Shown: piece after piece, positions 9,574 to 44,363 of the stretch
Layout: each line of letters opens with the position of its first letter
Position numbering within the stretch: the first letter of the stretch is position 1
From: Pseudophaeobacter sp. EL27
Lineage (GTDB): Bacteria > Pseudomonadota > Alphaproteobacteria > Rhodobacterales > Rhodobacteraceae
NCBI RefSeq assembly: GCF_900313025.1
Contig: NZ_OMPQ01000013.1
Span: 62,001 to 126,000 of the forward strand
Length of the DNA: 64,000 nucleotides
Direction of reading: 5' to 3'
The notes under the pieces: generated by a model
What the model saw: the letters and a program-made list of their open reading frames with translations, nothing else
The model's database searches: none
What the model was told of the DNA's origin: nothing
Translations under genes and position numbers: made by a program

Positions 9574-11535
9574 ATGTCACAGCAGCCCGTAGGTCAGGCC
9601 CACGCGCCATCCGAGGAAACCGTTGCCCGCGCCCATGTGGACAGTGCCAAATACGATGAAATGTATGCCGCTTCGATCAACGATCCGGAGGCGTTCTGGG
9701 GAGAGCACGGCAAACGGATCGACTGGATCAAGCCCTTCACAACGGTGAAGGACGTGAATTACAGCTTTGGCGAAGTCTCGATCAACTGGTTTGCTGACGG
9801 CACTCTGAACGTCTCAGCCAACTGCATCGACCGCCATCTGGAAACCCGCGGTGACCAGACTGCGATCATCTTTGAACCCGACGATCCTGAAGAGGCCGCG
9901 CAGCACATTACTTATAAAGAGCTGCACCGCCGCACCTGCCGCATGGCCAATATCCTGGAAACCATGGGCGTGCGCAAAGGCGACCGGGTGGTGATCTATC
10001 TGCCGATGATCCCCGAAGCCGCCTATGCGATGCTGGCCTGTGCCCGTATCGGCGCGATCCATTCGATCGTCTTTGCCGGCTTCAGCCCCGATGCGCTGGC
10101 CGCACGGGTCAATGGTTCAGACGCCAAGGTGGTGATAACCGCAGATGAGGCCCCCCGTGGTGGCCGCAAGACACCGCTGAAATCCAATGCTGACGCCGCC
10201 CTCTTGCACTGCAAGGACACGGTGAAATGCCTGGTGGTCAAGCGCACCGGTGGCCAGACCACCTGGGTGGCCGATCGTGACTATGACTATAACGAGATGG
10301 CGCTGGAAGCGAACGACTACTGCAAACCCGCAGAGATGAACGCTGAAGACCCGCTCTTTGTACTCTATACATCGGGCTCCACCGGCCAGCCCAAGGGCGT
10401 TGTACATACCTCGGGTGGCTATCTCGCCTATGCGGCGATGACCCATGAAATCACCTTTGATTACCACGATGGCGATATCTACTGGTGCACCGCTGACGTG
10501 GGTTGGGTCACCGGCCACAGCTATATCGTCTATGGACCGCTGGCCAATGGTGCCACCACCTTGATGTTCGAAGGCGTGCCAACCTACCCCGACGCCAGCC
10601 GTTTCTGGCAGGTCTGCGAAAAGCACAAGGTCAACCAGTTCTACACGGCTCCAACCGCACTGCGCGCCCTGATGGGTCAGGGCAATGAATGGGTTGAGAA
10701 ATGCGATCTCTCCTCGCTGCGCCTGCTGGGCACCGTGGGCGAGCCGATCAACCCCGAAGCCTGGAACTGGTACAACGACGTGGTCGGCGGCGGCCGCTGC
10801 CCCATCGTTGACACCTGGTGGCAGACTGAAACCGGTGGCCATCTGATGACGCCGCTGCCCGGCGCCCATGCCACCAAGCCTGGCTCAGCGATGAAGCCCT
10901 TCTTTGGTATCAAGCCCGTGGTTCTGGATCCGCAGTCCGGCGAAGAGATCTCTGGCAATGGTGTTGAGGGTGTTCTCTGCATCAAAGACAGCTGGCCCGG
11001 TCAGATGCGCACGGTCTGGGGCGATCACGAGCGCTTTCAGAAGACCTATTTCTCTGACTACAAAGGCTACTACTTCACCGGCGACGGCTGCCGTCGCGAT
11101 GAAGACGGCGACTATTGGATCACTGGCCGCGTCGATGACGTGATCAATGTATCCGGTCACCGGATGGGAACCGCCGAGGTCGAAAGCGCGCTGGTGGCTC
11201 ATGCCGCCGTCGCCGAGGCCGCTGTGGTGGGCTATCCACACGACATCAAAGGTCAGGGCATCTATTGCTATGTCACCCTGATGAATGACCGCGAGCCCTC
11301 TGATGAACTCTTGAAAGAGCTGCGCACCTGGGTCCGCACCGAGATTGGCCCGATTGCCAGCCCCGATGTGATCCAGTGGTCCCCCGGCCTGCCCAAGACC
11401 CGCTCCGGCAAGATCATGCGCCGTATCCTGCGCAAGATTGCCGAAAACGACTTTGGCGCTCTGGGTGATACCTCGACACTGGCCGATCCTTCGGTGGTCG
11501 ATGATCTGATCGCCAACCGGGCAGTAAAGGGGTAA
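9574..11535 (+). CDS. acs: acetyl-CoA synthetase (AMP-forming)
   Basis: The enzyme makes acetyl-CoA from acetate, CoA and ATP, releasing AMP and PPi. About 653 residues carry all Acs signatures: the [18 protein letters not shown] helix, [18 protein letters not shown] (ATP loop), [36 protein letters not shown], and the C-terminal [15 protein letters not shown] with the Lys whose acetylation silences the enzyme. ATG 9574 follows GGAGGAG; an upstream GTG frame lacks a site. adk follows after 7 bases. Confidence 0.97.
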
Positions 11536-11542
11536 CTGGAGC

Positions 11543-12226
11543 ATGACAAGTGATGTAATGACCCGCCCCGCTGTTCTCATTCTTCTCGGCCCTCCCGGCG
11601 CCGGGAAGGGTACACAGGCCCGCGTTCTGGAAGAGAAGTTTGGCCTTGTTCAACTCTCGACCGGAGACCTTCTGCGCGCTGCCGTGGCTGCCGGCACCGA
11701 GGCCGGTAAGGCCGCCAAGGCCGTGATGGCTTCCGGTGGTCTGGTCTCTGATGAGATCGTGATCAACATCCTGCGCGACCGTCTGGCGGAACCAGACTGT
11801 GCCAAGGGGGTCATCCTTGATGGCTTCCCCCGCACCACCGTTCAGGCCGAGGCGCTGGATGTTCTGCTGGCTGAAACCGGTCAGAAGATCAACGCCGCGA
11901 TCAGCCTGGAAGTAGATGACAGTGCCATGGTGACCCGGGTTTCCGGGCGCTACACCTGCGGCGGTTGCGGCGAGGGCTACCACGACAGTTTCAAGCAGCC
12001 AGAAGTTGCCGGAACATGCGACAAATGCGGCAGTCAGAACATGACCCGTCGCGCTGATGACAATGCCGAAACCGTCGCCAGTCGTCTGGCGGCCTATCAC
12101 GAACAGACCGCACCGCTAATTGCCTACTACAAGGGCAAAGACGCATTGCAAATCATTGATGCAATGGGAGAAATCGAGGCGATCTCTGGGGGCCTAACCA
12201 AGATCGTTTCCGAAGTAACGAGTTAA
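11543..12226 (+). CDS. adk: adenylate kinase, zinc-lid long form
   Basis: The product (up to 227 residues) has the P-loop LLGPPGAGKGTQ, the AMP-binding LSTGDLLRAAV, the DGFPRTTVQAEAL motif and a long LID with CGGCGEGYH and CDKCG, a four-Cys zinc site. It interconverts AMP + ATP and 2 ADP. Placed 7 bases after acs, it would recycle the AMP that acs makes. Roseobacters normally carry another adk in the ribosomal-protein operon, so this may be a paralogue; that is an inference. Either the ATG at 11543 or the internal ATG at 11558 could be the start. Confidence 0.95.
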   Translation: MTSDVMTRPAVLILLGPPGAGKGTQARVLEEKFGLVQLSTGDLLRAAVAAGTEAGKAAKAVMASGGLVSDEIVINILRDRLAEPDCAKGVILDGFPRTTVQAEALDVLLAETGQKINAAISLEVDDSAMVTRVSGRYTCGGCGEGYHDSFKQPEVAGTCDKCGSQNMTRRADDNAETVASRLAAYHEQTAPLIAYYKGKDALQIIDAMGEIEAISGGLTKIVSEVTS

Positions 12227-12436: not shown

Positions 12437-12721
12437 ATGGCGGACCACACAACAAACGCTGCACAGACAGCCGAGGCCGATAAGGGCTATTGGCAGGCCA
12501 ATGTGCGGATCATTCTTGTCAGCCTAGTGATCTGGGCTGTCGTTTCATTTGGTTTTGGCATTCTGCTGCGTCCGATGCTGTCCGGCATTGCCGTTGGTGG
12601 CACGGATCTGGGCTTCTGGTTTGCCCAGCAGGGGTCGATCATGGTCTTTTTGGGCCTGATCTTTTTCTACGCCTTCCGGATGAACAAGCTGGACCGTGAA
12701 TTCGGCGTCGAGGAGGAGTAA
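12437..12721 (+). CDS. DUF4212 small subunit of an SLC5-type symporter
   Basis: The 94-residue membrane protein has two hydrophobic spans (around VRIILVSLVIWAVVSFGFGI and GSIMVFLGLIFFYAFRMNKL) with a polar N-terminus. This is the DUF4212 layout, whose genes precede VC_2705-type sodium:solute symporters, as here (3-base gap). A purine-rich GGAAGAAGGAGGAG ribosome site lies upstream. It is analogous to YjcH beside ActP, though not identical to it. Its role in transport is unproven. Confidence 0.9.
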   Translation: MADHTTNAAQTAEADKGYWQANVRIILVSLVIWAVVSFGFGILLRPMLSGIAVGGTDLGFWFAQQGSIMVFLGLIFFYAFRMNKLDREFGVEEE

Positions 12722-12724
12722 ACA

Positions 12725-14509
12725 ATGGATCAGTTTACCATCAACCTGCTGTTTGTGGGCACGTCCTTCGCGCTCTACATCGGCATCGCGATCTGGGCCC
12801 GCGCGGGCTCCACATCGGAATTCTACGCGGCGGGTCGCGGTGTGCACCCCGTCACCAACGGTATGGCCACAGCGGCCGACTGGATGTCTGCGGCCTCCTT
12901 CATCTCGATGGCGGGCCTGATTGCCTTTACCGGCTATGACAACTCGTCCTTCCTGATGGGTTGGACTGGTGGCTATGTGCTGCTCGCGCTGCTGCTCGCC
13001 CCCTATCTGCGCAAGTTCGGCAAGTTCACCGTTTCCGAGTTCATCGGTGATCGGTTCTACAGCCCAACCGCGCGTATCGTGGCGGTGATCTGCTTGATCG
13101 TTGCCTCGACAACTTACGTTATTGGTCAGATGACTGGCGTGGGCGTGGCCTTTGGCCGCTTCCTCGAAGTCTCCAACACCGCAGGGCTGTTAATTGGCGC
13201 CTGTGTTGTGTTCGCCTATGCGGTGTTCGGAGGCATGAAAGGCGTGACCTATACACAGGTTGCGCAATACTGCGTGCTGATCATGGCCTATACCATTCCG
13301 GCCATCTTCATCTCGCTGCAGCTGACCGGCAACCCAATCCCTGCCCTGGGTCTGTTTGGCGATCATGTCGCCTCGGGTGAGCCTTTGTTGCAAAAGCTGG
13401 ACGCTATCGTGCGGGAGCTGGGCTTTAACGAGTATACCGCTCACCATTCCGACACCTTCAACATGGTGCTGTTCACCCTGTCGCTGATGATCGGTACCGC
13501 GGGTCTGCCCCACGTGATCATGCGTTTCTTCACCGTACCCCGCGTGGCAGATGCCCGCTGGTCCGCTGGCTGGGCGCTGGTCTTTATCGCCCTGCTGTAT
13601 CTTACCGCGCCGGCCGTGGGTGCCATGGCGCGTCTGAACATCACCGATATGATGTGGCCCAATGGCACAGATGCGGCAGCGGTTTCGGTCGAGCAGATCG
13701 AAAACGATGCACGCTATGACTGGATGGCGACCTGGGAAAAAACCGGTCTCCTGGCCTGGGAAGACAAGAACGGCGATGGCCACATTCAGTATTACAACGA
13801 CAAGAATGCTGACATGCAGGCCAAAGCGGCTGAAAACGGCTGGACCGGCAACGAGCTGACCAAGTTCAACCGTGACATCCTGGTTCTGGCCAACCCTGAA
13901 ATCGCCAACCTGCCCTCTTGGGTCATTGGTCTGGTGGCTGCAGGTGGTCTGGCGGCGGCGCTGTCAACGGCGGCTGGTCTGCTGCTGGCGATCTCTTCCG
14001 CTGTGTCGCACGATCTGATCAAAGGTTCGATCAACCCGAATATCTCGGAAAAAGGCGAGCTGCTGTCAGCCCGTATTGCCATGGCGGTTGCCATTGCGGT
14101 TGCCACCTACCTGGGTCTCAACCCTCCCGGCTTTGCGGCGCAGACTGTGGCCCTGGCCTTTGGTCTGGCGGCGGCCTCGATCTTCCCGGCACTGATGATG
14201 GGGATCTTCTCTAAGAAGATCAACAACACCGGTGCTGTGGCAGGTATGCTGGCTGGTCTGGGCGTCACCCTGATCTACATCTTCCTGCACAAGGGCTGGC
14301 TATTCATTCCGGGCACCAACTCCTTCACCGATGCGGATCCGCTGCTGGGCACGATCAAGTCGACCTCCTTTGGTGCCATCGGTGCCGCGGTCAACTTCAC
14401 CGTTGCCTATGTGGTTGCCGGCATGACCAAGGAAACCCCGCAGGAGATCAAAGATCTGGTCGAAAGCGTGCGCATCCCACGTGGCGCAGGGGCTGCACAG
14501 GATCACTGA
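12725..14509 (+). CDS. sodium:solute symporter, acetate-permease-like (VC_2705 family)
   Basis: The 594-residue SLC5 protein shows the family core: FYAAGRGVHPVTNGMATAAD in span 1, FTGYDNSSFLMGWTGGYVLL, TTYVIGQMTGVGVAFGRF, MIGTAGLPHVIMRFFT, and AALSTAAGLLLAISSAVSHD. It probably imports acetate or another short-chain acid, inferred from the acs operon upstream. A hydrophilic insertion between later spans (residues ~320-390) contains DKNGDGHIQYYN (~347-358), an EF-hand-like calcium loop lacking the final Glu. A terminator follows the stop. Confidence 0.92.
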   Translation: MDQFTINLLFVGTSFALYIGIAIWARAGSTSEFYAAGRGVHPVTNGMATAADWMSAASFISMAGLIAFTGYDNSSFLMGWTGGYVLLALLLAPYLRKFGKFTVSEFIGDRFYSPTARIVAVICLIVASTTYVIGQMTGVGVAFGRFLEVSNTAGLLIGACVVFAYAVFGGMKGVTYTQVAQYCVLIMAYTIPAIFISLQLTGNPIPALGLFGDHVASGEPLLQKLDAIVRELGFNEYTAHHSDTFNMVLFTLSLMIGTAGLPHVIMRFFTVPRVADARWSAGWALVFIALLYLTAPAVGAMARLNITDMMWPNGTDAAAVSVEQIENDARYDWMATWEKTGLLAWEDKNGDGHIQYYNDKNADMQAKAAENGWTGNELTKFNRDILVLANPEIANLPSWVIGLVAAGGLAAALSTAAGLLLAISSAVSHDLIKGSINPNISEKGELLSARIAMAVAIAVATYLGLNPPGFAAQTVALAFGLAAASIFPALMMGIFSKKINNTGAVAGMLAGLGVTLIYIFLHKGWLFIPGTNSFTDADPLLGTIKSTSFGAIGAAVNFTVAYVVAGMTKETPQEIKDLVESVRIPRGAGAAQDH

Positions 14510-14647: not shown

Positions 14648-16471
14648 ATGCCGATTTCCGAAACCGATCTGATCCGCTTTCTCACCTCCGTTCATCCCTA
14701 TGACAGTCTCGAGCTGAGCAGGCTGCGGGATCTGGCGCCAAAGTTTCAAGTCCTGTCGGTCAATCCCGGTGAGACCATCTATGAGCTGGGCACCGATCTT
14801 GCCGGGCTGTATCTGGTGCATCACGGCGAGGTCGAAGTTTTTGACGAAAACGACATGGCGATCTCGATCCTGGGTCCGCGCAATTCCTTTGGTGAACGCG
14901 GGCTGACACGTGGCGGTCGCGCTGTCACCTCGGCGCGCGCCAGCATTGCAACTGTACTGCTATTGCTGCCCCGCGCGGATTTTGACGCCCTGATGCAGGC
15001 CGAACCTGCGGTCACGCGTTTCTTTGATCGCCGCCGCCCCGATGCGCCGATCCAGAACGGGCTCACCACCACCCGCGCCGAGACCTTTATGGCGGCCCCC
15101 CCCGTGACCTGTTCTGCGGGCCTCACCTGCCAGGGAGCGGCGCAGCTGATGCGTCAGCACCATATCTCCTGTGTCTGCATCAGCGATGGCGATACATTGC
15201 TGGGCATTCTGACCACCCGGGATCTGACAGAGAAACTGCTGGCCGAGGGACTGCCCTTTTCCACCCCAGTGTCGCAGATCATGACCAAAAACCCCCGCAG
15301 CCTGCCGCCCTCGGCCATTGGCTCGGATGTGCTGCATGCCATGATGGAGCACCACATCGGCCATATCCCGGTGGTGCTGAACAATCGGTTGCTTGGCATT
15401 ATCACCCAGACCGACCTCACCCGGTTTCAGGCGGTCAGCTCAGCCGAGCTGGTCTCCAGCATCGCCCGCGCGGGTAGTGCCGAGGAGATGGCAGCGGTCA
15501 CCGCCGAGATCCCCCGGCTGCTGGTACAGCTGGTGGCCGGCGGCAACCGCCATGAGGTGGTGACCCGGTTGATCACTGATATTGCTGATACCGCCACCAG
15601 ACGGTTGCTTGCCCTTGCAGAAACGAAGCTTGGCCCCGCCCCCGTGCCCTATCTCTGGCTTGCCTGTGGCAGCCAGGGCCGCCAGGAACAGACCGGAGTT
15701 TCGGATCAGGACAACTGCCTGATCTTGGCAGATGAGGCGACAGAAGCGCATGACGCCTATTTTGCCGCGCTGGCGGAATATGTCTGTGATGGGTTGAACA
15801 CCTGCGGCTATGTCTATTGCCCCGGTGATATGATGGCGACCAATAGCCGGTGGCGGCAACCTCTGCACGTCTGGCGGGAGTATTTTGGCGGCTGGATCAC
15901 CAAACCCGGCCCCGAGGCCCAGATGTTGGCCTCGGTGATGTTTGATCTTCGCCCCATTGGCGGCGACACCAGCCTGTTTGCAGGGCTACAGACCAACGTC
16001 CTGGCCTCGGCCTGTGCCAATTCGATCTTTGTGGCCCATATGACCTCAAATGCGCTGAAGCATACCCCGCCCCTGGGACTGTTGCGCGGCTTTGCCACCA
16101 TTCGCTCAGGCGAGCATCGCAACACCCTGGATATGAAGCACAATGGTGTGGTGCCGGTGACGGATCTGGGGCGGATCTACGCCTTGCAGGGCGAGATTGC
16201 CGCGGTGAATACCCGCGCCCGCCTGGAAGCTGGCGCCGCCGCTGGCGTCATCAGCCCCAGCGGCGCCCGCGATCTGCTGGACGCCTATGATTTGATCGCC
16301 CAGACTCGGTTGGAACATCAGGCGGATCTTGTGCGCCAGGGGCAGATACCTGACAACTATTTGGCGCCATCAGATTTGTCTGACTTTGAGCGAAGTCATC
16401 TGCGTGACGCCTTTGTCGTGGTAAAAACCATGCAATCGGCGCTGGGGCACGGTAAGGGCATGTTAGGATAG
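14648..16471 (+). CDS. cNMP-binding / CBS / DUF294 nucleotidyltransferase-like protein
   Basis: The 607-residue cytoplasmic protein has four parts: a cyclic-nucleotide-binding-type domain (residues ~20-125, with GETIYELGTDLAGLYLVHHG), a CBS pair (~145-262, with LLGILTTRDLTEKLL and LLGIITQTDLTRF), a DUF294 nucleotidyltransferase-like core (GSQGRQEQTGVSDQDNCLIL at 341-360, matching the GSxGRxE...SDxD signature of GlnD-type enzymes), and a DUF294_C helical tail. The catalytic acidic pair is intact. Substrate is unknown; UMP or AMP transfer to a protein is a guess. ATG 14648 is chosen because the upstream in-frame extension is not domain-like. Confidence 0.9.
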   Translation: MPISETDLIRFLTSVHPYDSLELSRLRDLAPKFQVLSVNPGETIYELGTDLAGLYLVHHGEVEVFDENDMAISILGPRNSFGERGLTRGGRAVTSARASIATVLLLLPRADFDALMQAEPAVTRFFDRRRPDAPIQNGLTTTRAETFMAAPPVTCSAGLTCQGAAQLMRQHHISCVCISDGDTLLGILTTRDLTEKLLAEGLPFSTPVSQIMTKNPRSLPPSAIGSDVLHAMMEHHIGHIPVVLNNRLLGIITQTDLTRFQAVSSAELVSSIARAGSAEEMAAVTAEIPRLLVQLVAGGNRHEVVTRLITDIADTATRRLLALAETKLGPAPVPYLWLACGSQGRQEQTGVSDQDNCLILADEATEAHDAYFAALAEYVCDGLNTCGYVYCPGDMMATNSRWRQPLHVWREYFGGWITKPGPEAQMLASVMFDLRPIGGDTSLFAGLQTNVLASACANSIFVAHMTSNALKHTPPLGLLRGFATIRSGEHRNTLDMKHNGVVPVTDLGRIYALQGEIAAVNTRARLEAGAAAGVISPSGARDLLDAYDLIAQTRLEHQADLVRQGQIPDNYLAPSDLSDFERSHLRDAFVVVKTMQSALGHGKGMLG

Positions 16472-16493
16472 CACATCGCTTGGGGCTTATGTC

Positions 16494-16527
16494 GGAGCCT
16501 CCGGCGGGAATATTTTTGGAAAGATGA
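16494..16527 (-). repeat. dispersed roseobacter intergenic repeat, inverted partial copy
   Basis: GGAGCCTCCGGCGGGAATATTTTTGG is, on the - strand, the CCAAAAATATTCCCGCCGG core of the repeat seen at 21293, 24770 and 58058. The second hairpin is missing. Confidence 0.55.
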
Positions 16528-16570
16528 TAGGCCCAGGGTTTCACAACACCCGGGCAGTCTTGGGGGAAAG

Positions 16571-17089
16571 ATGTTTCTGGAACTGATCGCTGTGATTTTT
16601 GCCGGTATCGCTGTTGCCGGGGTGGTGATGCTGATCAACAGCGCCACCGGGGCGCGACTGCCGCGCTGGCTGGCGCCAGTGGCGGCGGGTCTGGCGATGA
16701 TTGGTGTGACGGTTGCTTCGGAATATAGCTGGTACAGCCGCACCGAGGCCAATCTGCCCGAAGGGCTGGTGGTGGCCGAGGTGGTGGAGAGCCGCAAGCT
16801 CTATCGCCCCTGGACCTATCTGGTGCCACTGAGCGAGCGCTTTGTTGCGGTGGACCTGGCCACCCGGCGCAGCCATCCAAAGCAGCCGGACCAGCATCTG
16901 GCAGAGGTGTTCTTTTTTGGCCGCTGGGCGCCGATCAGCCAGCTCAGCATTGTTGCGGATTGTGCTAATTGGCGGCGCGCAGCGGTGGAGGCTGAGACCC
17001 GGTTTGCCGAGGATGGCAGTATTGGTGGCGTAAACTGGGTCTCCCCCCCTGCTGAAGACCCGCTCTTGACCACCACCTGCGGAGGCTGA
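16571..17089 (+). CDS. hypothetical membrane-anchored protein
   Basis: The 172-residue protein has two N-terminal hydrophobic spans (FLELIAVIFAGIAVAGVVML, then LAPVAAGLAMIGVTVASEY) and a soluble C-terminal half of ~120 residues beginning LPEGLVVAEVVESRKLYRPW. I recognise no domain. It is sandwiched between the DUF294 gene and the exonuclease gene (4-base gap to the latter), so co-expression with both is likely. The soluble part ends with two Cys (VADCANWRR, TTTCGG) that might pair in the periplasm. Confidence 0.75.
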   Translation: MFLELIAVIFAGIAVAGVVMLINSATGARLPRWLAPVAAGLAMIGVTVASEYSWYSRTEANLPEGLVVAEVVESRKLYRPWTYLVPLSERFVAVDLATRRSHPKQPDQHLAEVFFFGRWAPISQLSIVADCANWRRAAVEAETRFAEDGSIGGVNWVSPPAEDPLLTTTCGG

Positions 17090-17093
17090 CCCC

Positions 17094-18548
17094 ATGTTGA
17101 CCCATCTGAGCCTGCGTCTGCGGATTTTCTTGTTTTTCTGCCTCCTCGCCCTGGGCGCAATTGCTGTCAGCCTGGGCAGTCTTTGGCTGAGCTATCAACG
17201 GGCAGCGACCCCAGCCCTGCTCGATCCCTTTATTTTTGCCGGCCTGCTTGGCACCTTTGCAATTCTTGGTATCTGCGCAGGCATATGGCTGCTGTTTGAT
17301 GAGAATGTCGCCAAGCCAATCGAAGTTCTCGCCTCAGAGATGCGGTTGCGTGCCCATGGGGGGGTGTCCCGGGGTATTGATGCCAAGACAGCACGCTATC
17401 TGGGTGATCTCGCCCCTGCTGCGGCTGGGTTGGCCGGGCAGCTTGGTGACACCACCCTGTTGACCGCGCGCAATATCGCTGAGGAAACGGCGCGGCTGGA
17501 AGCAGATAAACGCCAGTTGACCGCGCTCCTGAGTGAGCTGCCAGTCGCAACGGTGATGCTGGGCGCAGATCATCGCATCGTGCTTTATGATGCCCAGGCG
17601 GCAGTGGTTCTGGCGCAGATTGCCCACCCTCGCCTGAATGCCTGCCTGTTTGACTACCTGGACCAAGTGGCTCTGGAAGCCGCCTATAGCCAGATGATCA
17701 AGACGGGCAAGGAGGTGCAGGCGCAGGTGACGGGCCGGGACGAGGCGCAGAGCTATCTCGTGCACCTAAAGCCACTAGGCCAGGGGGAAGGCTATGTGCT
17801 AATCTTTGATGCCGCCGTTGCCAGAATCGCCCCTGACGCCGCCCGGCCCCTGATTTACGATTTTGAGCTTCTCGAGCGCCCGCTGCAGGATATTGGCGAA
17901 CGGAGCCTGAAAGATCTGTGCTTTGCGGTGTTTGATACCGAAACCACCGGACTGTTGCCACATAAGGATGAGATCGTCCAGATTGGGGCCGTCCGGGTGC
18001 TGAACGGCCGCATGATCGAGGGGGAGCAGTTTGATACGCTGGTCGACCCGCAGCGGCCCATCCCCGAGGCCTCGACCCGGGTGCACGGGGTCAGCAATGC
18101 CATGGTGCAGGGAGCCCCGGTCATTACAAAAGCGGCAGCCCAGTTTCACCTCTTTGCCAAGGATGCGGTGATTGTGGCCCATAACGCGCCATTTGACATG
18201 GCCTTTTTGCGCCGTCACGCCAAGGCAACCAGGGTAGAGTGGGATCATCCGATCCTGGATACTGTATTACTGAGTGCAGTGCTGTTTGGATCCTCGGTTC
18301 CGCACACGCTGGATGCGCTCTGTGAACGGCTGGATATCACCATCCCGCCTGCCCTGCGCCATACGGCCCTGGGCGATGCCCATGCAACCGCAAGCGCCCT
18401 GGTGCAAATGATCCCCATGCTGCAGGCGCGCGGCTTTAACAGCCTGGAACAGGTGATTGAGCAAACCCGCCGCCATGGACGGCTGCTGGAGGACCTCAAT
18501 CCAGTGGACAATCACGGCAGCACATGGCAGGCAGGCGAAAAGACCTGA
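17094..18548 (+). CDS. membrane sensor-like protein with DEDDh 3'-5' exonuclease domain
   Basis: 484 residues. Residues ~10-33 and ~45-68 are membrane spans with a short periplasmic loop; ~70-115 resemble a HAMP linker (NVAKPIEVLASEMRLRAHGG); ~145-240 look like a PAS domain (PVATVMLGADHRIVLYDAQA). The DnaQ-type exonuclease follows at ~275-440 with all DEDDh residues: D281/E283 in FDTETTG, D368 in AHNAPFDMAFL, and H423/D428 in HTALGDAHA. The front half is built like a sensor kinase, but the output is a nuclease. Ligand and nucleic-acid target are unknown. Confidence 0.9.
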   Translation: MLTHLSLRLRIFLFFCLLALGAIAVSLGSLWLSYQRAATPALLDPFIFAGLLGTFAILGICAGIWLLFDENVAKPIEVLASEMRLRAHGGVSRGIDAKTARYLGDLAPAAAGLAGQLGDTTLLTARNIAEETARLEADKRQLTALLSELPVATVMLGADHRIVLYDAQAAVVLAQIAHPRLNACLFDYLDQVALEAAYSQMIKTGKEVQAQVTGRDEAQSYLVHLKPLGQGEGYVLIFDAAVARIAPDAARPLIYDFELLERPLQDIGERSLKDLCFAVFDTETTGLLPHKDEIVQIGAVRVLNGRMIEGEQFDTLVDPQRPIPEASTRVHGVSNAMVQGAPVITKAAAQFHLFAKDAVIVAHNAPFDMAFLRRHAKATRVEWDHPILDTVLLSAVLFGSSVPHTLDALCERLDITIPPALRHTALGDAHATASALVQMIPMLQARGFNSLEQVIEQTRRHGRLLEDLNPVDNHGSTWQAGEKT

Positions 18549-18561
18549 AGTGAGGCGCGCG

Positions 18562-19062
18562 ATGCCAGAAACCAGTTTTATTCCCGCCGCTGACACGGCC
18601 CGGGCCTATCGGGATGCTCTGGGCTATTTTGCCACCGGGGTCACCGTTGTGACCACCCTTTCGCAAGACCGCCCCCTGGCGATCACAGTGAACAGTTTCA
18701 CCTCGGTTTCGATTGAGCCGCCGCTCCTGCTCTGGTGCCCTGATCGCAGCTCGCTGCGTCACGATACATTTGTCGCCGCAGAACGCTTTGCCATTCATGT
18801 GCTTGCCGAAGATCAGCTGGAGCAGGCGCAGCATTTTGCCCGCGATGGCGAGGGGTTTACCCAGGCCAACTGGCACAAAAGCGCGGCTGGAACTCCGGCC
18901 CTGCACGGCTATATCGCCCGGTTTGAATGTCAGAAATTTGAGGCTCATCCCGCTGGGGATCACACCATCATTTTAGGGCAAGTCACAAAGGTCACCACCC
19001 GCCCAGGCAAAGGTTTGATCTTTAAACGGGGCCAGTTTGGCGGCTTTTTGGAACAGTCTTGA
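18562..19062 (+). CDS. flavin reductase family protein (FMN-binding split barrel)
   Basis: The 166-residue product starts at ATG 18562 (MPETSFIPAADTARAYRDA), 13 bases after the exonuclease stop. LGYFATGVTVVTTL, DRPLAITVNSFTSVSIEPPL, LRHDTFVAAERFAIHVLAEDQ and GDHTIILGQVTKV are the flavin-reductase-domain signatures. Such enzymes reduce FMN/FAD with NAD(P)H, often for a two-component monooxygenase; no oxygenase adjoins it. It closes the + strand block. Confidence 0.9.
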   Translation: MPETSFIPAADTARAYRDALGYFATGVTVVTTLSQDRPLAITVNSFTSVSIEPPLLLWCPDRSSLRHDTFVAAERFAIHVLAEDQLEQAQHFARDGEGFTQANWHKSAAGTPALHGYIARFECQKFEAHPAGDHTIILGQVTKVTTRPGKGLIFKRGQFGGFLEQS

Positions 19063-38032: not shown

Positions 38033-39397
38033 TCACAGCCCTGATGCGGCATCCCCCTCCAGGCCTGCGAGTTTTGATATCTCTGCCGCCGCATCATCCG
38101 GGTTGAACTGGTCCATGCCGTCGCCTAACCCGCCAAAGTCTCCCATGGGGGCCGCAGCCAAATCACCACCCAGGTCACCGCCCAGATCGCCTAAGCCAGC
38201 GCCAAGATCTGCCCCCAGGTTAGCACCCAGGTCCATTCCCAGATCAGCTCCTAAACCAGCGCCAAGGTCACCGCCCAGCCCGGCGCCAAGATCGCCGCCC
38301 AATCCGGCTGGGTCATCCCCCATCCCGTCCAGGGCAAGCCCGCCTGCCGGTGCCCCAAAGCCCATTGGATCATCCAGTGGATCCTGCAGATCCTGCGCCG
38401 CAATCCCCAGATCCAGCGCTGCGGGTTCTTCGATCATCGGCAGGGAGGGCGGGGCGTCAGAGCCGATACTATCGGCAAAACCATCGCCCAGATGCGCCGG
38501 ATCAGGCTGCGCCGCCCGGCCCGTGCTCAGCCGGACTGCGCGCGCGCCGTTCAACTGCCCAAGACGTCCCTTGGCAATGGAATGCCCGGTAATATCGAGC
38601 AAATCGGTTTCATACAAAAAGGCCTGATCCAGCGGCAGAACCTCGCCCACCTTCAGGGCAGAGAATTCGTTGAGAGGGACGCGAACCTTGCACAGAATCG
38701 CTGAGAGCTCGGCGCGCATGGCGCCCATGCCACCCGCCAGCGATGGGCCTGCCTTTGCCCCGCTCAAACCCAGCTCCTCCAGGGTAGGTTCCGGCAGGAT
38801 CAGCTTTAGCTCCCCCTGCATCGCCCCAACAGCCAGATCCACAGTCAAAGAGATCAGCCGGTAATCTTCGGCCTCCATTCCCAGGACCAGCGACCGCACA
38901 TTTTCGATCTGGGCGCCGTAGCGATAGCCAGAAAAGATCAGCTGGTCTCTTTCTCCCTGCAACAGCGCCTGCACCTTGGAAAAGGCCTTTTCCAGGAACT
39001 CAGCCGTCATGGCGGCATCGGTTGGTGTGTAGTTGCGCTCGGATGGAGCCTTGCCCATGATCTGACCAATGGTCTGTTTCTGGATCAGCGCTGTGACCAG
39101 CGCGGCATCCATGGTTGCTGCCCCAAGACGCCCGTTGGGGCCATCCAGAACCACAAGCAGATCCTTGTCCGACAGATCCTCGGTTAGGTCTTCGGGCGCA
39201 CGATTGACCTGGCGCACCGCCAGAACAGCCAAAGGCAGATCGCATTGTTCCGAGGCCGCGCGAGCAAGCGACCGGCGCAAAGCTTTGAGCGTGAAAGACC
39301 CTTTTTGAGCCGCCCCCCCATCCTTTGACGCCGCAAGTTTGCGCGCGAGTCCACCAGACCCGCCGCTACCAGCTTGCTGTTTTTCCGCTTCAGACAT
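38033..39397 (-). CDS. FliM/FliN-domain (SpoA-type) protein with Gly-Asp-Leu repeat tail
   Basis: 454 residues. The N-terminal part is a FliM-like core (LVVLDGPNGRLGAATMDAAL, TPTDAAMTAEFLEKAFSKV). A surface-presentation/FliN domain at ~230-295 reads RAELSAILCKVRVPLNEFSA, then LPLDQAFLYETDLLDITG. The tail (~355-425) is a low-complexity run of DLGAGLGGDLG-like units. It resembles a flagellar motor switch protein but is not in a flagellar operon; it lies 68 bases downstream of the SLC5 kinase gene, same strand. Role uncertain. Confidence 0.75.
   Translation of the reverse strand: MSEAEKQQAGSGGSGGLARKLAASKDGGAAQKGSFTLKALRRSLARAASEQCDLPLAVLAVRQVNRAPEDLTEDLSDKDLLVVLDGPNGRLGAATMDAALVTALIQKQTIGQIMGKAPSERNYTPTDAAMTAEFLEKAFSKVQALLQGERDQLIFSGYRYGAQIENVRSLVLGMEAEDYRLISLTVDLAVGAMQGELKLILPEPTLEELGLSGAKAGPSLAGGMGAMRAELSAILCKVRVPLNEFSALKVGEVLPLDQAFLYETDLLDITGHSIAKGRLGQLNGARAVRLSTGRAAQPDPAHLGDGFADSIGSDAPPSLPMIEEPAALDLGIAAQDLQDPLDDPMGFGAPAGGLALDGMGDDPAGLGGDLGAGLGGDLGAGLGADLGMDLGANLGADLGAGLGDLGGDLGGDLAAAPMGDFGGLGDGMDQFNPDDAAAEISKLAGLEGDAASGL
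38150..38315 (-). repeat. degenerate in-gene repeat encoding Gly-Asp-Leu units
   Basis: The codons for GGDLGAGLG recur with small changes (GACCTGGGCGCTGG-like units on the - strand), giving about eight near-repeats. They stay in frame and vary at third positions, so the protein sequence is kept. Confidence 0.75.
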
Positions 39398-39465
39398 CAG
39401 CCATCAACCTGCACGTTTTGCGCTCCCTTTTTAATTGTCTTAACGACCGTTCGTTACCAAGATCT

Positions 39466-42159
39466 TTAAAACGCAGTCTCAGAGAGAATTTTCCGCTCAA
39501 ATGGCAGGGAAATTCTGAAACTGCCACCACTTTGTCCAGCGAGGTATGTGATGTCGCCCCCAAGGCGCTGCATAATCTCACGACAAATCGCCAGCCCAAG
39601 CCCGGCTCCCCCGGCGCGTTCAGGGCTAACACGAGAGAATTTCTCAAAAATTAACTGCTGATGATCTGCGGGCACACCGCTGCCATTATCGGTGAAATCA
39701 ATCCAAACTTCGCCCAGGCTGCGGGTCACCCGAATGGTGAGTTCCGCCGGATCACCGTCGCAATACTTCTGCGCATTGGCAATCAGGTTGATAAAGACCT
39801 GCGCCAGCCGATCCAGATCTGATGAGATCCTTATCTCTTCGGTTTTGGGATCCCTGTGCACCTGAATGGGATGATCCGATCCCGCTAAGGCGGTAGAGAC
39901 CGCATGGTCCATGACCTCGCGCAGGGTGCCTGCCGACATGTTCAAACTGACCTGGCCGCTTTCCAGCACGCTCAGATCCAGCAGATCATTCAACAACCGG
40001 GTCAAGCGCAGGGCCTCATCGTGGATGATGGTGGCATAGCGGGTCTTCTCTGACAGTGGCATATCGCCGTCATCGCGCAGGATCTCGGAGAAGGCCCGGA
40101 TCGAGGTCATCGGGGTGCGCAGCTCATGGCTCACCTGACTGAGAAAGGCATCTTTTTGTTGGGAAATCTGGGTCAGCTTCTCATTTGAGACCCGCAGCTG
40201 CCGTGCCGTGCGTGACAGCTCTGCCGACTGCTCCTCCAGCTGGTTGGAATACTCCAGCATCTGCGCGGTTTCATCCGCCACCGCCAACAGATCCTGTACC
40301 GAAACCGAAGAGCCGCCAACAATCTGGCCGATCATCGCATGGGCCGCCGCCGCCCCGATGGAGGCACCCAGCTCACGCTCCAGCCGCTCCAGAAAAGCCG
40401 GGGTTGGCTCTGGCAGAGTGCCACGCCCCCCTTGTCGCGCCAACTCGCGTTGGAAAAATGCCTGGGCCTCAGTGGCGCCCAAAATTCGCTGCGACATCAC
40501 CATCAGATCTTCGCTCTGCGCCACCGATCCGGTCCAGCCCCGCGGGCCAGAGGAATGTTCGAACACATTAACAAACTGCGCCCCCTGCAGTCGCTCAATC
40601 GGGCTGGGAAAGGTCATCAGCGAGACGACACAAAACGCCACGGCGTTGAGGCTCATCGACCAGAGCACCGCATGTACGGTTGAATCCAGGCCCTCAATAC
40701 CAAACAGCGCCTGCGGGCGCAGCCAGGACAGGCCAAACAACCCCTCGGCGAGAATGTGATCCGGCAATAGCCCGCCGCCCAGAGCAGGCAGCAGCATGGT
40801 ATAGACCCAAATGGCAAAGCCCACAGACAATCCGCTCAGGGCGCCGGTGCGGGTCGCCCCGCGCCAGAACAGCCCGCCCACAAGAGCCGGCAGCATTTGC
40901 GAAATACCGGCAAAGGAGATCAGCCCCACTGCAGCCAGGGCTGCCCCACCGCCGGAAAACTTGTAGTAAAAATACCCCAGCCCCAGAATGACAGCGATTG
41001 AAATCCGGCGGGCAAACAGTACGACATTGCGCACATCCCCCGAAACCGAAGCCCCCTCGCCGCCCTGCAAATGCAGCCAGATCGGCATCACTATATGGTT
41101 CGACACCATGGTTGACAGCGCCATGGCCGCCACGATCACCATCGAGGTGGCCGAGGAAAACCCGCCCAGGAAAGACAGCATCGCCAGCCCTTGCTGGCCC
41201 TGCGACAAAGGCACGGTCAGAACAAAGAGATCCGGGTTGGATCCGGGGGGCAGCAGCTCCAGCCCGATGGCGGCGATCGGCACCACAAACATGGAGATCA
41301 ACAGCAGGTAGAGCGGAAAGGCCCAGGCCGCGACCCGCAGATGGCGCTCATCCTCGTTTTCCACCACCATGACCTGAAACATCCGGGGCAGACAAACAAA
41401 GGCCGCCGCCGACAAAAAGGTGATGGTGGCCCAGCGTCCGCCGTCGACCTTCCAGTCGCCAATCCGCGAGGCATCAATTCGCGCCAGGGTTTCACTCACG
41501 CCGTCCGACAGGCCCCAGACCACAAAGATCCCCACCGCAAGCAGCGCCAGCAGCTTGATCACCGCCTCCAGAGCGACAGCGGTGACCACGCCATGGTGTC
41601 GCTCATTTGCGTTGAGATTGCGGGTGCCAAACAGGATGGCAAAGATCGCCAACCCCGCCGTCACCCAGAACACCGTGGTGGTTTCGTGGTAGCTGCGCAG
41701 CGGATCGGCCTCGGCGAAGATCGCAAAAGACAGGGTAATGGACTGAAGTTGCAGCGAAATATAAGGGGTGATACCAATCACCGCCAATACTGTGACACCA
41801 ATGGCCAGCGCATTGGATTTGCCATAGCGCGCCGACAGAAGGTCCGCGATAGAGGTGACGCGCTGGCTGCGCCCAACCCGAACCAGCTTGCGCAGCCCCC
41901 ACCACCAGCCAATCATCACCAAAGTCGGCCCCAGGTAAATGGTAAGGAATTCCAGACCAGAGCGCGCCGCATAGCCCACCGCGCCGTAAAAGGTCCAGGC
42001 GGTACAATAGATCGACAGCGACAGCGTATAGATCAGCGGCGAGCGCATCCATCTGGCGCTTTGGCCCCGGGCGGCGCGACGATCCGCGACAAAAGCCACA
42101 AAGAACAACAGCGCCACATAGGCCAGACAGACCAGCGCCAACACATTGAGCGAGGCCAT
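39466..42159 (-). CDS. SLC5-type sensor histidine kinase (CrbS/CbrA-like)
   Basis: 897 residues from ATG 42159. The first ~560 form an SLC5 symporter-like domain (SIYCTAWTFYGAVGYAARSG, SFLGGFSSATSMVIVAAMAL, LISFAGISQMLPALVGGLFW). Then a STAC-like stretch (FLERLERELGASIGAAAAHA), a coiled coil, and the kinase: FLSQVSHELRTPMTSIRAFS (H-box), NLIANAQKYC (N-box), WIDFTDNGSGVP and GGAGLGLAICREIM (G-boxes). No PAS domain is evident. It likely couples substrate sensing to phosphorylation of the nearby response regulator. Confidence 0.93.
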   Translation of the reverse strand: MASLNVLALVCLAYVALLFFVAFVADRRAARGQSARWMRSPLIYTLSLSIYCTAWTFYGAVGYAARSGLEFLTIYLGPTLVMIGWWWGLRKLVRVGRSQRVTSIADLLSARYGKSNALAIGVTVLAVIGITPYISLQLQSITLSFAIFAEADPLRSYHETTTVFWVTAGLAIFAILFGTRNLNANERHHGVVTAVALEAVIKLLALLAVGIFVVWGLSDGVSETLARIDASRIGDWKVDGGRWATITFLSAAAFVCLPRMFQVMVVENEDERHLRVAAWAFPLYLLLISMFVVPIAAIGLELLPPGSNPDLFVLTVPLSQGQQGLAMLSFLGGFSSATSMVIVAAMALSTMVSNHIVMPIWLHLQGGEGASVSGDVRNVVLFARRISIAVILGLGYFYYKFSGGGAALAAVGLISFAGISQMLPALVGGLFWRGATRTGALSGLSVGFAIWVYTMLLPALGGGLLPDHILAEGLFGLSWLRPQALFGIEGLDSTVHAVLWSMSLNAVAFCVVSLMTFPSPIERLQGAQFVNVFEHSSGPRGWTGSVAQSEDLMVMSQRILGATEAQAFFQRELARQGGRGTLPEPTPAFLERLERELGASIGAAAAHAMIGQIVGGSSVSVQDLLAVADETAQMLEYSNQLEEQSAELSRTARQLRVSNEKLTQISQQKDAFLSQVSHELRTPMTSIRAFSEILRDDGDMPLSEKTRYATIIHDEALRLTRLLNDLLDLSVLESGQVSLNMSAGTLREVMDHAVSTALAGSDHPIQVHRDPKTEEIRISSDLDRLAQVFINLIANAQKYCDGDPAELTIRVTRSLGEVWIDFTDNGSGVPADHQQLIFEKFSRVSPERAGGAGLGLAICREIMQRLGGDITYLAGQSGGSFRISLPFERKILSETAF

Positions 42160-42482
42160 CAGCTCCGCTCGTCCTGCGGGCCGCCATCGGTCCAGTGCCC
42201 AGCCCAAAGCTGCACGGCCAGACCAAAGGCAAAGCTGAGGGCAATCAACCCGCCCCAGACCGCAAAGATATAGGTGATCGCAGCAGAGGTCGCCATGCCG
42301 GCCTGATTGCCGGGAGCGGGATAGGGATCCGGATTTGGCCACATCAGGGGCACCGTAAACAGCAGGGCACCCAGAATCGGCAGCAACCGGGCAATATCCA
42401 TCAGGCGACGGCGGCGATAGGTGCGCCGCTCCACAAAGGGGCTGTTGGGCTCAGCCTGATGTCCGGCCCCGTCGCCGCGCAT
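42159..42482 (-). CDS. hypothetical small membrane protein of the kinase operon
   Basis: 107 residues with an N-terminal basic region (VERRTYRRRRLMDIARLL) and two spans (LLPILGALLFTVPLMWP and AITYIFAVWGGLIALSFAFG). Its stop overlaps the kinase start (TGATG), implying coupled translation. The position recalls small subunits of SLC5 proteins (DUF4212), but the sequence is not clearly of that family. Start could be 42482 or the ATG at 42401. Confidence 0.75.
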   Translation of the reverse strand: MRGDGAGHQAEPNSPFVERRTYRRRRLMDIARLLPILGALLFTVPLMWPNPDPYPAPGNQAGMATSAAITYIFAVWGGLIALSFAFGLAVQLWAGHWTDGGPQDERS

Positions 42483-42496
42483 TTACAGCGCCCCCG

Positions 42497-42907
42497 TCAC
42501 TGGGCAGCGTCCTGTGACGCTGTTTGCGGGGCCTGATAGGCCTGCGCATAGAGGTCGCGGACTGCTGTCAGCACTTCGGAATTGGAAAAGGGTTTGGTCA
42601 TGAACCGGGTGACCCCGGCCTTTTCCGCCATCTCACGGTCCTTCAACTGGCCCCGCGCGGTCAGCATCAGAACCGGAAGAGGTTGCAACTCCTCTACCAA
42701 GCGCAGTTCTTGAATTACTTCGAGACCACTTTTTCCAGGCAGCATGAGATCCAGGATCACCAGATCAGGGCCGGCGGCCTGAATGACCTCAGCCGCATCA
42801 CTGCCATTGCCATGCACATCCACAGTCCAGTTGTCACGGGTCAACAGAAACCGGATGGCCTCAGCGATATTCGGCTCATCTTCGATTAAAACGACATGTC
42901 TGCTCAT
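42497..42907 (-). CDS. single-domain response regulator
   Basis: 136 residues, a CheY-like receiver: IEDEP (acidic pair at 9-11), VILDLMLPGKSG with phospho-acceptor D53, MLTARGQ, and TKPFSNSEVLTAV with the conserved Lys. No output domain follows; the short Gln/Ala-rich tail ends at residue 136. The cognate kinase is the SLC5-type enzyme two genes downstream. How it affects transcription without a DNA-binding domain is open. Confidence 0.93.
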   Translation of the reverse strand: MSRHVVLIEDEPNIAEAIRFLLTRDNWTVDVHGNGSDAAEVIQAAGPDLVILDLMLPGKSGLEVIQELRLVEELQPLPVLMLTARGQLKDREMAEKAGVTRFMTKPFSNSEVLTAVRDLYAQAYQAPQTASQDAAQ

Positions 42908-43002
42908 TGGCAGATATTCCTCCCAGCGCGGCTGTTTCAGGCAGTTTTGCCCTCCGTCGCGTCCTTATCCCCCACCAGACTACCCTCCTGCGCCCGCAGC
43001 TG

Positions 43003-44301
43003 TCAAAACTCTTCCTTCAAGATTGAGGGTTCACGGCGCGCTTCGCAGGTTTGACGCGGACAGATCCGACAACTGCTGCCGACCGGATGCGCCTGCGCTG
43101 GCACATCGCTTTGCGGCAGAATCAGCATCACCGCATGATAAAGCGGGTCACGTTCAAAGGAGCTGGGGCCGTGGTTCCAGGCCACAGCCAGGCATTCAAA
43201 ACCCAGGGCGCTGCGCCCCTGTTGCACCACATTGCGCCGCAGGGGCACATCGGGGCGTTGTAATGCGGTATAAATCGGCCACAGCGGACAGGACGCGCCA
43301 AAGCGCGGCAGGGCAAAACCGGCCACTGGTTTACGAAACAGGATCGACCCCGAAGCATCACAAACCACCAGCCCGGCATCCTGCCCCAGCACATCAACCG
43401 GCAGAACTCCCAGTCGGCGCAGGACCACCGGCAGAGCGACGTTAAACCGCAGCGCCAGTGCCGATGGGTCCAACCCCTGGGACTGTATACTCTGCGCCAC
43501 TTCCTTGAGCGGCATCAGTTCTGCGTCGCTTTGATATTGTTCCAATGCGCCCCGGGCAATCATCCGGGCCGAGTCACTGACCAGCTCCGGCGCTGCCGCA
43601 ACCAGCTCTTTAGGGGAACTCTGCCCCTGCTCCAGATCTGGAAAGTGATAACTGTGGGACAGAAAAAACTCCTCGGCCTCTTCCTGCGGCACACCGCGAC
43701 GCTCCGCGCTGCTGTCGCTTTCATCGAGAAAATTCACCAATGCCCGGCTGCTTTCGGCCAGGCGTCGGGAGTCCTCGTTAAGGTTATTATGAAAACGATC
43801 ACGCCATTCCTGCTCCAACTCCCCGGTTTCCGCCAGAATTGAGGCAGTCGAGCGGATCGCGGCCGCCGTCGACAGCACCTCATGCAACGACGCCGCCAGA
43901 TGCGGATCATGGGTCAGACGATCCGACAGTGTCTCAACGGTGCGTTCCAACCTGGAAATGCGCTGGTGATTGCTGGCCAGAACCTCGGCCCAGCCAGGGA
44001 AACGACCGGCAAACTCATCAGTACGGTCCAGCTCCGCCACTTTCGGGCCAGCATCCGCTGCGGCCTCCCGCAGAGCGGCAATCAGTGCCGCCTCGGCACC
44101 TTCGGTCAGCATCGAGGGTTCAACCCCCAGAACCTGTGCCAGATCCACCAGAAGTTTACCGCCGATTCTGCGGCGGTTGTGCTCAATAAGATTGAGGTAA
44201 GAGGCCGAGATTCCGGCCTTGCGCGCCAGCTCTGCCTGTCGAATACCAAGCATCAAACGCCGTTCCCGAATACGGCTGCCTGTCAACGTGTCGCGCGCCA
44301 T
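43003..44301 (-). CDS. XRE-family regulator of the ScfR/RamB group (short-chain acyl regulator)
   Basis: 432 residues from ATG 44301, preceded by GGAGGC. The N-terminal HTH is IRERRLMLGIRQAELARKAG, then ISASYLNLIEHNRRRIGGKL. A middle region has an IrrE/ImmA-like fold (LALRFNVALPVVLRRLGVLP). The C-terminal domain carries CRICPRQTCEARREPS, the cysteine motif of ScfR-type proteins that control acetate, propionate or isocitrate lyase genes. Family ligands are acyl-CoA-linked; the targets here are not known, but repeats upstream suggest autoregulation. Confidence 0.92.
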   Translation of the reverse strand: MARDTLTGSRIRERRLMLGIRQAELARKAGISASYLNLIEHNRRRIGGKLLVDLAQVLGVEPSMLTEGAEAALIAALREAAADAGPKVAELDRTDEFAGRFPGWAEVLASNHQRISRLERTVETLSDRLTHDPHLAASLHEVLSTAAAIRSTASILAETGELEQEWRDRFHNNLNEDSRRLAESSRALVNFLDESDSSAERRGVPQEEAEEFFLSHSYHFPDLEQGQSSPKELVAAAPELVSDSARMIARGALEQYQSDAELMPLKEVAQSIQSQGLDPSALALRFNVALPVVLRRLGVLPVDVLGQDAGLVVCDASGSILFRKPVAGFALPRFGASCPLWPIYTALQRPDVPLRRNVVQQGRSALGFECLAVAWNHGPSSFERDPLYHAVMLILPQSDVPAQAHPVGSSCRICPRQTCEARREPSILKEEF

Positions 44302-44363
44302 GAGTTGCCTCCCTGTCAAAACCCCACCTTTTCAACGGCTTTCTGCATTGCAACATAACAAAA

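Follow-up and report, generated by a model that had tools for sequence, protein, structure and literature searches.

A DUF294 nucleotidyltransferase and a DEDDh exonuclease as a gene pair beside acetate-uptake genes in Pseudophaeobacter, with longer exonuclease forms that carry a putative pseudokinase core

In 64,000 nt of the genome of Pseudophaeobacter sp. EL27 (contig NZ_OMPQ01000013.1, positions 62,001 to 126,000; hereafter the window, in whose positions all features are given), three co-directional genes lie beside genes for acetate uptake, as a sequence-only reading of this DNA had noted: a DUF294 nucleotidyltransferase (NTase; 14648-16471, +, 607 residues), a small membrane protein (16571-17089, +, 172 residues) and a membrane exonuclease of the DEDDh type (17094-18548, +, 484 residues). 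The NTase and the exonuclease are a real functional unit. The pair is already known from Pseudomonas, without an assigned function; what appears to be new, judged from sequence, is a long form of the exonuclease that carries a pseudokinase core and usually has its own response regulator. We tentatively propose, at a confidence that stops a little short of an even call, that the DUF294 protein nucleotidylates a protein of monocarboxylate metabolism and that the exonuclease strips this mark, a scheme in which we infer the substrate, the writer and eraser relation, the ligands of the CBS and PAS domains and the docking of the regulator.

In a sample of 81 genomes of the host's family, from which 40 loci were fetched, NTase and exonuclease genes are present in the identical 48 genomes. 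Weak PF03445 matches (~21 bits), found in open reading frames (ORFs) of ~950 residues that presumably encode GlnD, were left out of the DUF294 count. A TIGR03648 symporter is encoded in 47 of these 48 genomes, the exception (G006) having an ActP/DUF485 symporter in its place. The G006 locus (L069) is a divergent cluster of acs, DUF485, ActP, CBS-DUF294, CrbS, response regulator and long exonuclease genes, several of which overlap by a few bases. At least five genera (g4, g8, g24, g26 and g37 among them) include genomes with and without the cassette, its parts being gained or lost together. The order acs-(adk)-DUF4212-SLC5-NTase-small membrane protein-exonuclease recurs in 39 of the 40 fetched family loci, and the order of the last three genes is the same in 80 of 80 named loci, mostly from the Roseobacter group. 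Only three RNase_T genes are present in this genome, and the probability that the NTase and exonuclease genes are adjacent by chance is therefore of the order of 0.1%. Roseobacter-type cassettes were also seen on contigs titled Nocardioides, Cytophagaceae and Enemella (L083, L146 and L149, respectively), assemblies that are probably mislabelled or contaminated.

The association extends beyond the family. Among 200 Proteobacteria, a DUF294 gene lies within 12 kb of 31 of 48 TIGR03648 symporter genes, and in 60 fetched non-family loci, of up to 20 kb each, 51 DUF294 genes have an adjacent DEDDh exonuclease gene on the same strand, gaps of -4 to +20 bp being common. A fusion of the two is found in L200, where one protein of 705 residues has the order exonuclease-CBS-CBS-DUF294-DUF294_C. 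The co-occurrence of DUF294 and exonuclease genes with DUF4212/SLC5 genes, for which the sequence-only reading had called for a neighbourhood analysis, is thus upheld within and beyond the family. A DUF4212- or DUF485-type SLC5 symporter gene is, however, present in only 36 of the 59 non-family loci that hold DUF294, and the pair is therefore the core, with an acetate link that is common and not universal. Two DUF294 genes occur near one symporter in L185 and L190, each with an adjacent exonuclease gene in L185. Identical distribution, tight adjacency and the one fusion argue for a shared function of NTase and exonuclease. They bear directly on the suggestion made for the exonuclease by Henriquez et al. 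(2022), in which it would be a regulatory nuclease that turns over mRNAs of carboxylate genes, the NTase being merely co-regulated. This would fit the observation that in P. putida a phenotype resulted from deletion of the exonuclease only, but the indications of a shared function make it distinctly unlikely.

Pfam identifies in the NTase a cNMP-like domain (residues 37-118), two CBS domains, DUF294 (287-423, 5e-49) and DUF294_C (460-600, 2e-45), with PF03445 and PF10335 in tandem at 166 and 154 bits against gathering cut-offs of 21 and 22.5, respectively. The nucleotidyltransferase motif GSQGRQEQTGVSDQDN is intact in the window protein, and G341, S342, R345, D353 and D355 of the GS-x-x-R ... 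DxD core are invariant in the alignment columns of 103 NTase sequences, consistent with the complete GSxGRxE...SDxD core recognised in the earlier reading. The predicted model, with a predicted local distance difference test score (pLDDT) of 72, has a GlnE-type fold, an NTase domain followed by a helical bundle. Residues 217-601 align to the N-terminal domain of GlnE with Z 25.5 (root mean square deviation 4.3, 339 residues), and the model aligns to the adenylylation (C-terminal) domain of GlnE with Z 24.3 and to DrrA with Z 21.7. The predicted fold thus suggests that the DUF294 protein is a GlnE-like nucleotidyltransferase, closest to GlnE and DrrA, which are protein adenylyltransferases; CD-NTases are absent among the structural matches listed for the model. 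Structure comparison matches the CBS pair to many others, among them that of AcuB, solved with AMP/ADP. Canonical binding of cAMP is unlikely, and control of the NTase by cAMP is disfavoured, because just 5 of 35 close relatives retain the arginine of the phosphate-binding cassette (R91).

Two further alternatives turn on this fold. In one, the DUF294 protein would extend the 3′ ends of tRNAs or small RNAs and the exonuclease would trim them, so tuning translation on acetate or pyruvate. The polymerase-β superfamily does include RNA-tailing enzymes and the DEDDh fold is close to those of epsilon, ExoX, RNase T and 3′hExo, but with the NTase half closest to the protein adenylyltransferases, and with no RNA-binding domain detected by Pfam, we regard such tailing and trimming as unlikely. 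In the other, a small signalling nucleotide or oligonucleotide made by the NTase would be degraded by the exonuclease, as could be envisaged for two proteins that both carry sensor domains, given that polymerase-β-like enzymes make second messengers and that DEDDh enzymes degrade short oligonucleotides. No recurring receptor or effector gene was seen in the loci, however, and an NTase fold nearest to protein-modifying enzymes also points elsewhere, making this very unlikely.

The exonuclease encoded in the window has an RNase_T domain (Pfam, residues 279-435, 1.5e-34) in which the catalytic set D281, E283, D/E368, H423 and D428 is intact. Of 93 exonucleases, all have D281 and E283, 92 have an acidic residue (D or E) at position 368, and 91 have H423 and D428, the other two being gapped in the alignment; the DEDDh set first noticed in the window protein is complete in essentially all of them. 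Loss of catalytic residues from most homologues, the outcome that the sequence-only reading had named as telling against it, is seen in neither the 103 NTases nor the 93 exonucleases. In the AlphaFold model (pLDDT 80), a transmembrane hairpin (7-36 and 43-89, the helices being joined by ~6 residues) is followed by a long helical linker (106-147), a PAS-like fold (~150-240) and then the exonuclease domain (265-465), for which the nearest solved folds are the PolC exonuclease (Z 23.5), DinG, epsilon and ExoX. Transmembrane part, PAS-like fold and DEDDh domain agree with the earlier description, whereas the HAMP domain of that description was not detected by Pfam; a weak Pfam signal for PAS is present in relatives only. 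The exonuclease had also been proposed to respond to an extracellular cue. Direct sensing of an extracellular ligand is unlikely, because the model has no periplasmic sensor domain, and we rejected this proposal: the predicted periplasmic loop has ~6 residues and the PAS domain is predicted to be cytoplasmic.

Long exonucleases, of 630-820 residues as open frames, were found in 18 of the 40 loci from the family and in eight from outside it; they have ~180-230 additional residues between the PAS and exonuclease domains. In the 12 long forms aligned, this extra stretch matches the DHp-CA core of CrbS kinases from end to end (hhalign, 99.6%, E 6e-24, score 130 over 222 columns), 20 column shuffles used as a control having scored 11-17. 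No phospho-acceptor histidine or SHELRTP-type motif is present in the H-box of these 12 sequences, and with an altered N-box the long forms do not have the N/G box pattern of ATP binding. The kinase-like core would therefore seem, from these motifs, to be a pseudokinase, and since the long forms hold a histidine-kinase core that lacks its histidine, the exonuclease resembles a sensor kinase in which a nuclease has become the output. Of the long-form loci, 11 of 18 in the family and all eight elsewhere have a gene for a single-domain response regulator directly upstream of the exonuclease gene; this regulator gene adjoins none of 22 short forms, 80 named loci or ~43 soluble forms. In L178, L180, L193, L196, L197 and L206, a CrbS-like SLC5 kinase gene lies on the other side of the exonuclease gene. 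On the tree, about three changes were counted for the pseudokinase and about two for the regulator; with only two to three independent events, the joint loss of regulator and kinase-like core is suggestive, not significant, and was rejected as statistical proof of docking. The short exonuclease of the window has neither the pseudokinase core nor a linked regulator. In the open-access literature, no paper was found that describes an exonuclease combined with a kinase-like core and a regulator.

It is possible, although on balance doubtful, that these proteins constitute a two-component branch with a nuclease output, in which a kinase lost its phospho-acceptor and gained a DEDDh exonuclease, is controlled by a dedicated single-domain regulator phosphorylated by CrbS, and erases the mark that the neighbouring GlnE-like protein has placed. 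A derived form, from which pseudokinase and regulator have been removed, would then be present in the window. A CrbS-like SLC5-histidine kinase, the probable acetate sensor, is encoded elsewhere in the window (39466-42342, -; HisKA and HATPase_c; 43% over 890 residues to the CrbS of L069), with an adjoining single-domain response regulator (42497-42907, -) that is the genome's best match to the exonuclease-linked regulator. They are 21 kb from the cassette, in a block that is present in 20 of 20 sampled genomes. CrbS, with its own regulator, was found in 80 of the 81 family genomes whether or not they have the cassette, and its inclusion in the family's cassette was therefore rejected. The block (38033-44319, -) consists of genes for a ScfRs-type short-chain acyl-CoA regulator, the single-domain response regulator, the CrbS-like SLC5 kinase and a FliMN_C-domain protein, in an order that is the same in nearly all of the 20 genomes, cassette present or not.

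For reversible nucleotidylation, the reading that we prefer, the CBS pair of the NTase would read a cytoplasmic nucleotide, most likely AMP, ADP or ATP as Acs turns ATP into AMP, and the NTase would nucleotidylate a protein that takes part in the uptake or activation of monocarboxylates. The DEDDh exonuclease would counteract the NTase, since the chemistry that releases 5′-nucleoside monophosphates at 3′ ends would also release them from a side chain that carries a nucleotide. The form encoded in the window would be a membrane-bound eraser under the control of its cytoplasmic PAS domain; in other lineages, a dead histidine-kinase core with a dedicated response regulator, often beside CrbS, would do the gating. 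A possible division into a writing and an erasing enzyme, as first proposed from the sequence, is compatible with the intact active sites and with the GlnE/DrrA-like fold. Co-occurrence, catalytic residues and writer and eraser chemistry thus survive from that proposal, but the novelty of the pair, the extracellular cue and a place in the pair for the small membrane protein do not.

Several observations weigh against nucleotidylation. The active-site loop of the NTase model has low confidence, the exonuclease domain has its closest matches among enzymes of polymerase proofreading, and ~23 of the 59 non-family DUF294 loci have no SLC5 gene in up to 20 kb. No substrate of DUF294 proteins, or of the exonuclease, is reported in the literature as far as searched, and we know of no de-nucleotidylation by a DEDDh enzyme. 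Deletion of the P. putida exonuclease gene, pp_0353, delayed growth on pyruvate and not on acetate, and growth on acetate or succinate was unaffected by deletion of pp_0354, encoding the CBS protein (PMC9927547). Pflu5625 of P. fluorescens (cAMP-binding/CBS/nucleotidyltransferase), a member of the CrbS/R regulon, likewise gave no phenotype (PMC5715377). DUF294 proteins are widespread, and a tightly conserved partner with opposite chemistry, a fusion, a Pseudomonas regulon and a dead-kinase ancestor together provide a concrete, testable hypothesis. If it holds, either proteins of monocarboxylate metabolism would be reversibly nucleotidylated or a two-component system would act through a nuclease, and each of these would be new.

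The small membrane protein, a transmembrane hairpin followed by a ~115-residue domain, has no Pfam or NCBIfam match. It is conserved in 125 sequences, in which C131 and C170 are invariant and W54 and P80-W81 conserved, and the positive-inside rule suggests that its C-terminal domain is probably periplasmic. Because it is found beside the DUF4212/SLC5 symporter outside the family (L174, L182, L201, L202 and L205), we assign it to the transporter and do not favour its inclusion, as in the sequence-only reading, as a third partner of the pair.

Upstream of the NTase gene and in the same direction are acs, an adk paralogue and the two symporter genes. The acetyl-CoA synthetase gene acs (9574-11535, +; ACAS_N, AMP-binding and AMP-binding_C) opens the conserved cluster, almost all of the 40 fetched family loci having it in this place. 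Directly behind it, the adk paralogue (11543-12226, +; ADK and ADK_lid) is the second adenylate kinase gene of the genome, the only other being elsewhere at G000:C7:46072; it is found in most family cassettes and probably recycles the AMP produced by Acs. DUF4212, the symporter small subunit (12437-12721, +; TIGR03647/PF13937), precedes the SLC5 VC_2705-family sodium/monocarboxylate symporter (12725-14509, +; TIGR03648, 820 bits). A flavin reductase-like gene (18556-19062) behind the exonuclease gene is present in only four of the 40 family loci (L033, L036, L044 and L053).

The module had been taken as undescribed, but the same pair is represented by pp_0354/pp_0353 in the CrbS/R (MxtR/ErdR) regulon, by Pflu5625 and by PA3232-PA3235. 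In P. putida, pp_0354 and pp_0353, encoding the CBS protein and the RNase_T protein, form an operon under MxtR/ErdR (PMC9927547), and in P. aeruginosa PA3232-3235 are induced about 16-fold on propionate (PMC9765439). A CrbR (ACTU) promoter motif has been described in Gammaproteobacteria. As in the window, a CBS-DUF294 gene in these systems is followed by an RNase_T exonuclease gene in an operon linked to acetate or pyruvate. PA3232-PA3235 adjoins actP/yjcH, unlike the VC_2705/DUF4212-type symporter of the window, and the Pseudomonas exonuclease, with no known secretion signal and no sensor described (the Pseudomonas-type loci L181 and L184 encode a soluble exonuclease of 208 residues), differs from the 484-residue membrane PAS-exonuclease. 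GlnE and DrrA resemble the window NTase in having a nucleotidyltransferase fold with a C-terminal helical domain. Unlike GlnE, the window NTase has a single NTase domain, CBS and cNMP-like regulators and no removal domain, with an exonuclease gene beside it. GlnD, the PII uridylyltransferase/uridylyl-removing enzyme to which the weak PF03445 matches presumably correspond, combines writer and eraser in principle; its removal activity resides in an HD domain and its sensors are ACT domains, whereas in the window the candidate remover is a DEDDh enzyme and the sensors are CBS, cNMP-like and PAS domains. CrbS shares its DHp-CA core with the long exonuclease, which is without the H-box histidine and has the nuclease appended. 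DnaQ/epsilon, the PolC exonuclease, ExoX and RNase T share the DEDDh residues and fold of the window exonuclease, which is distinguished from them by its membrane anchor, its PAS domain and a location that is not linked to replication genes.

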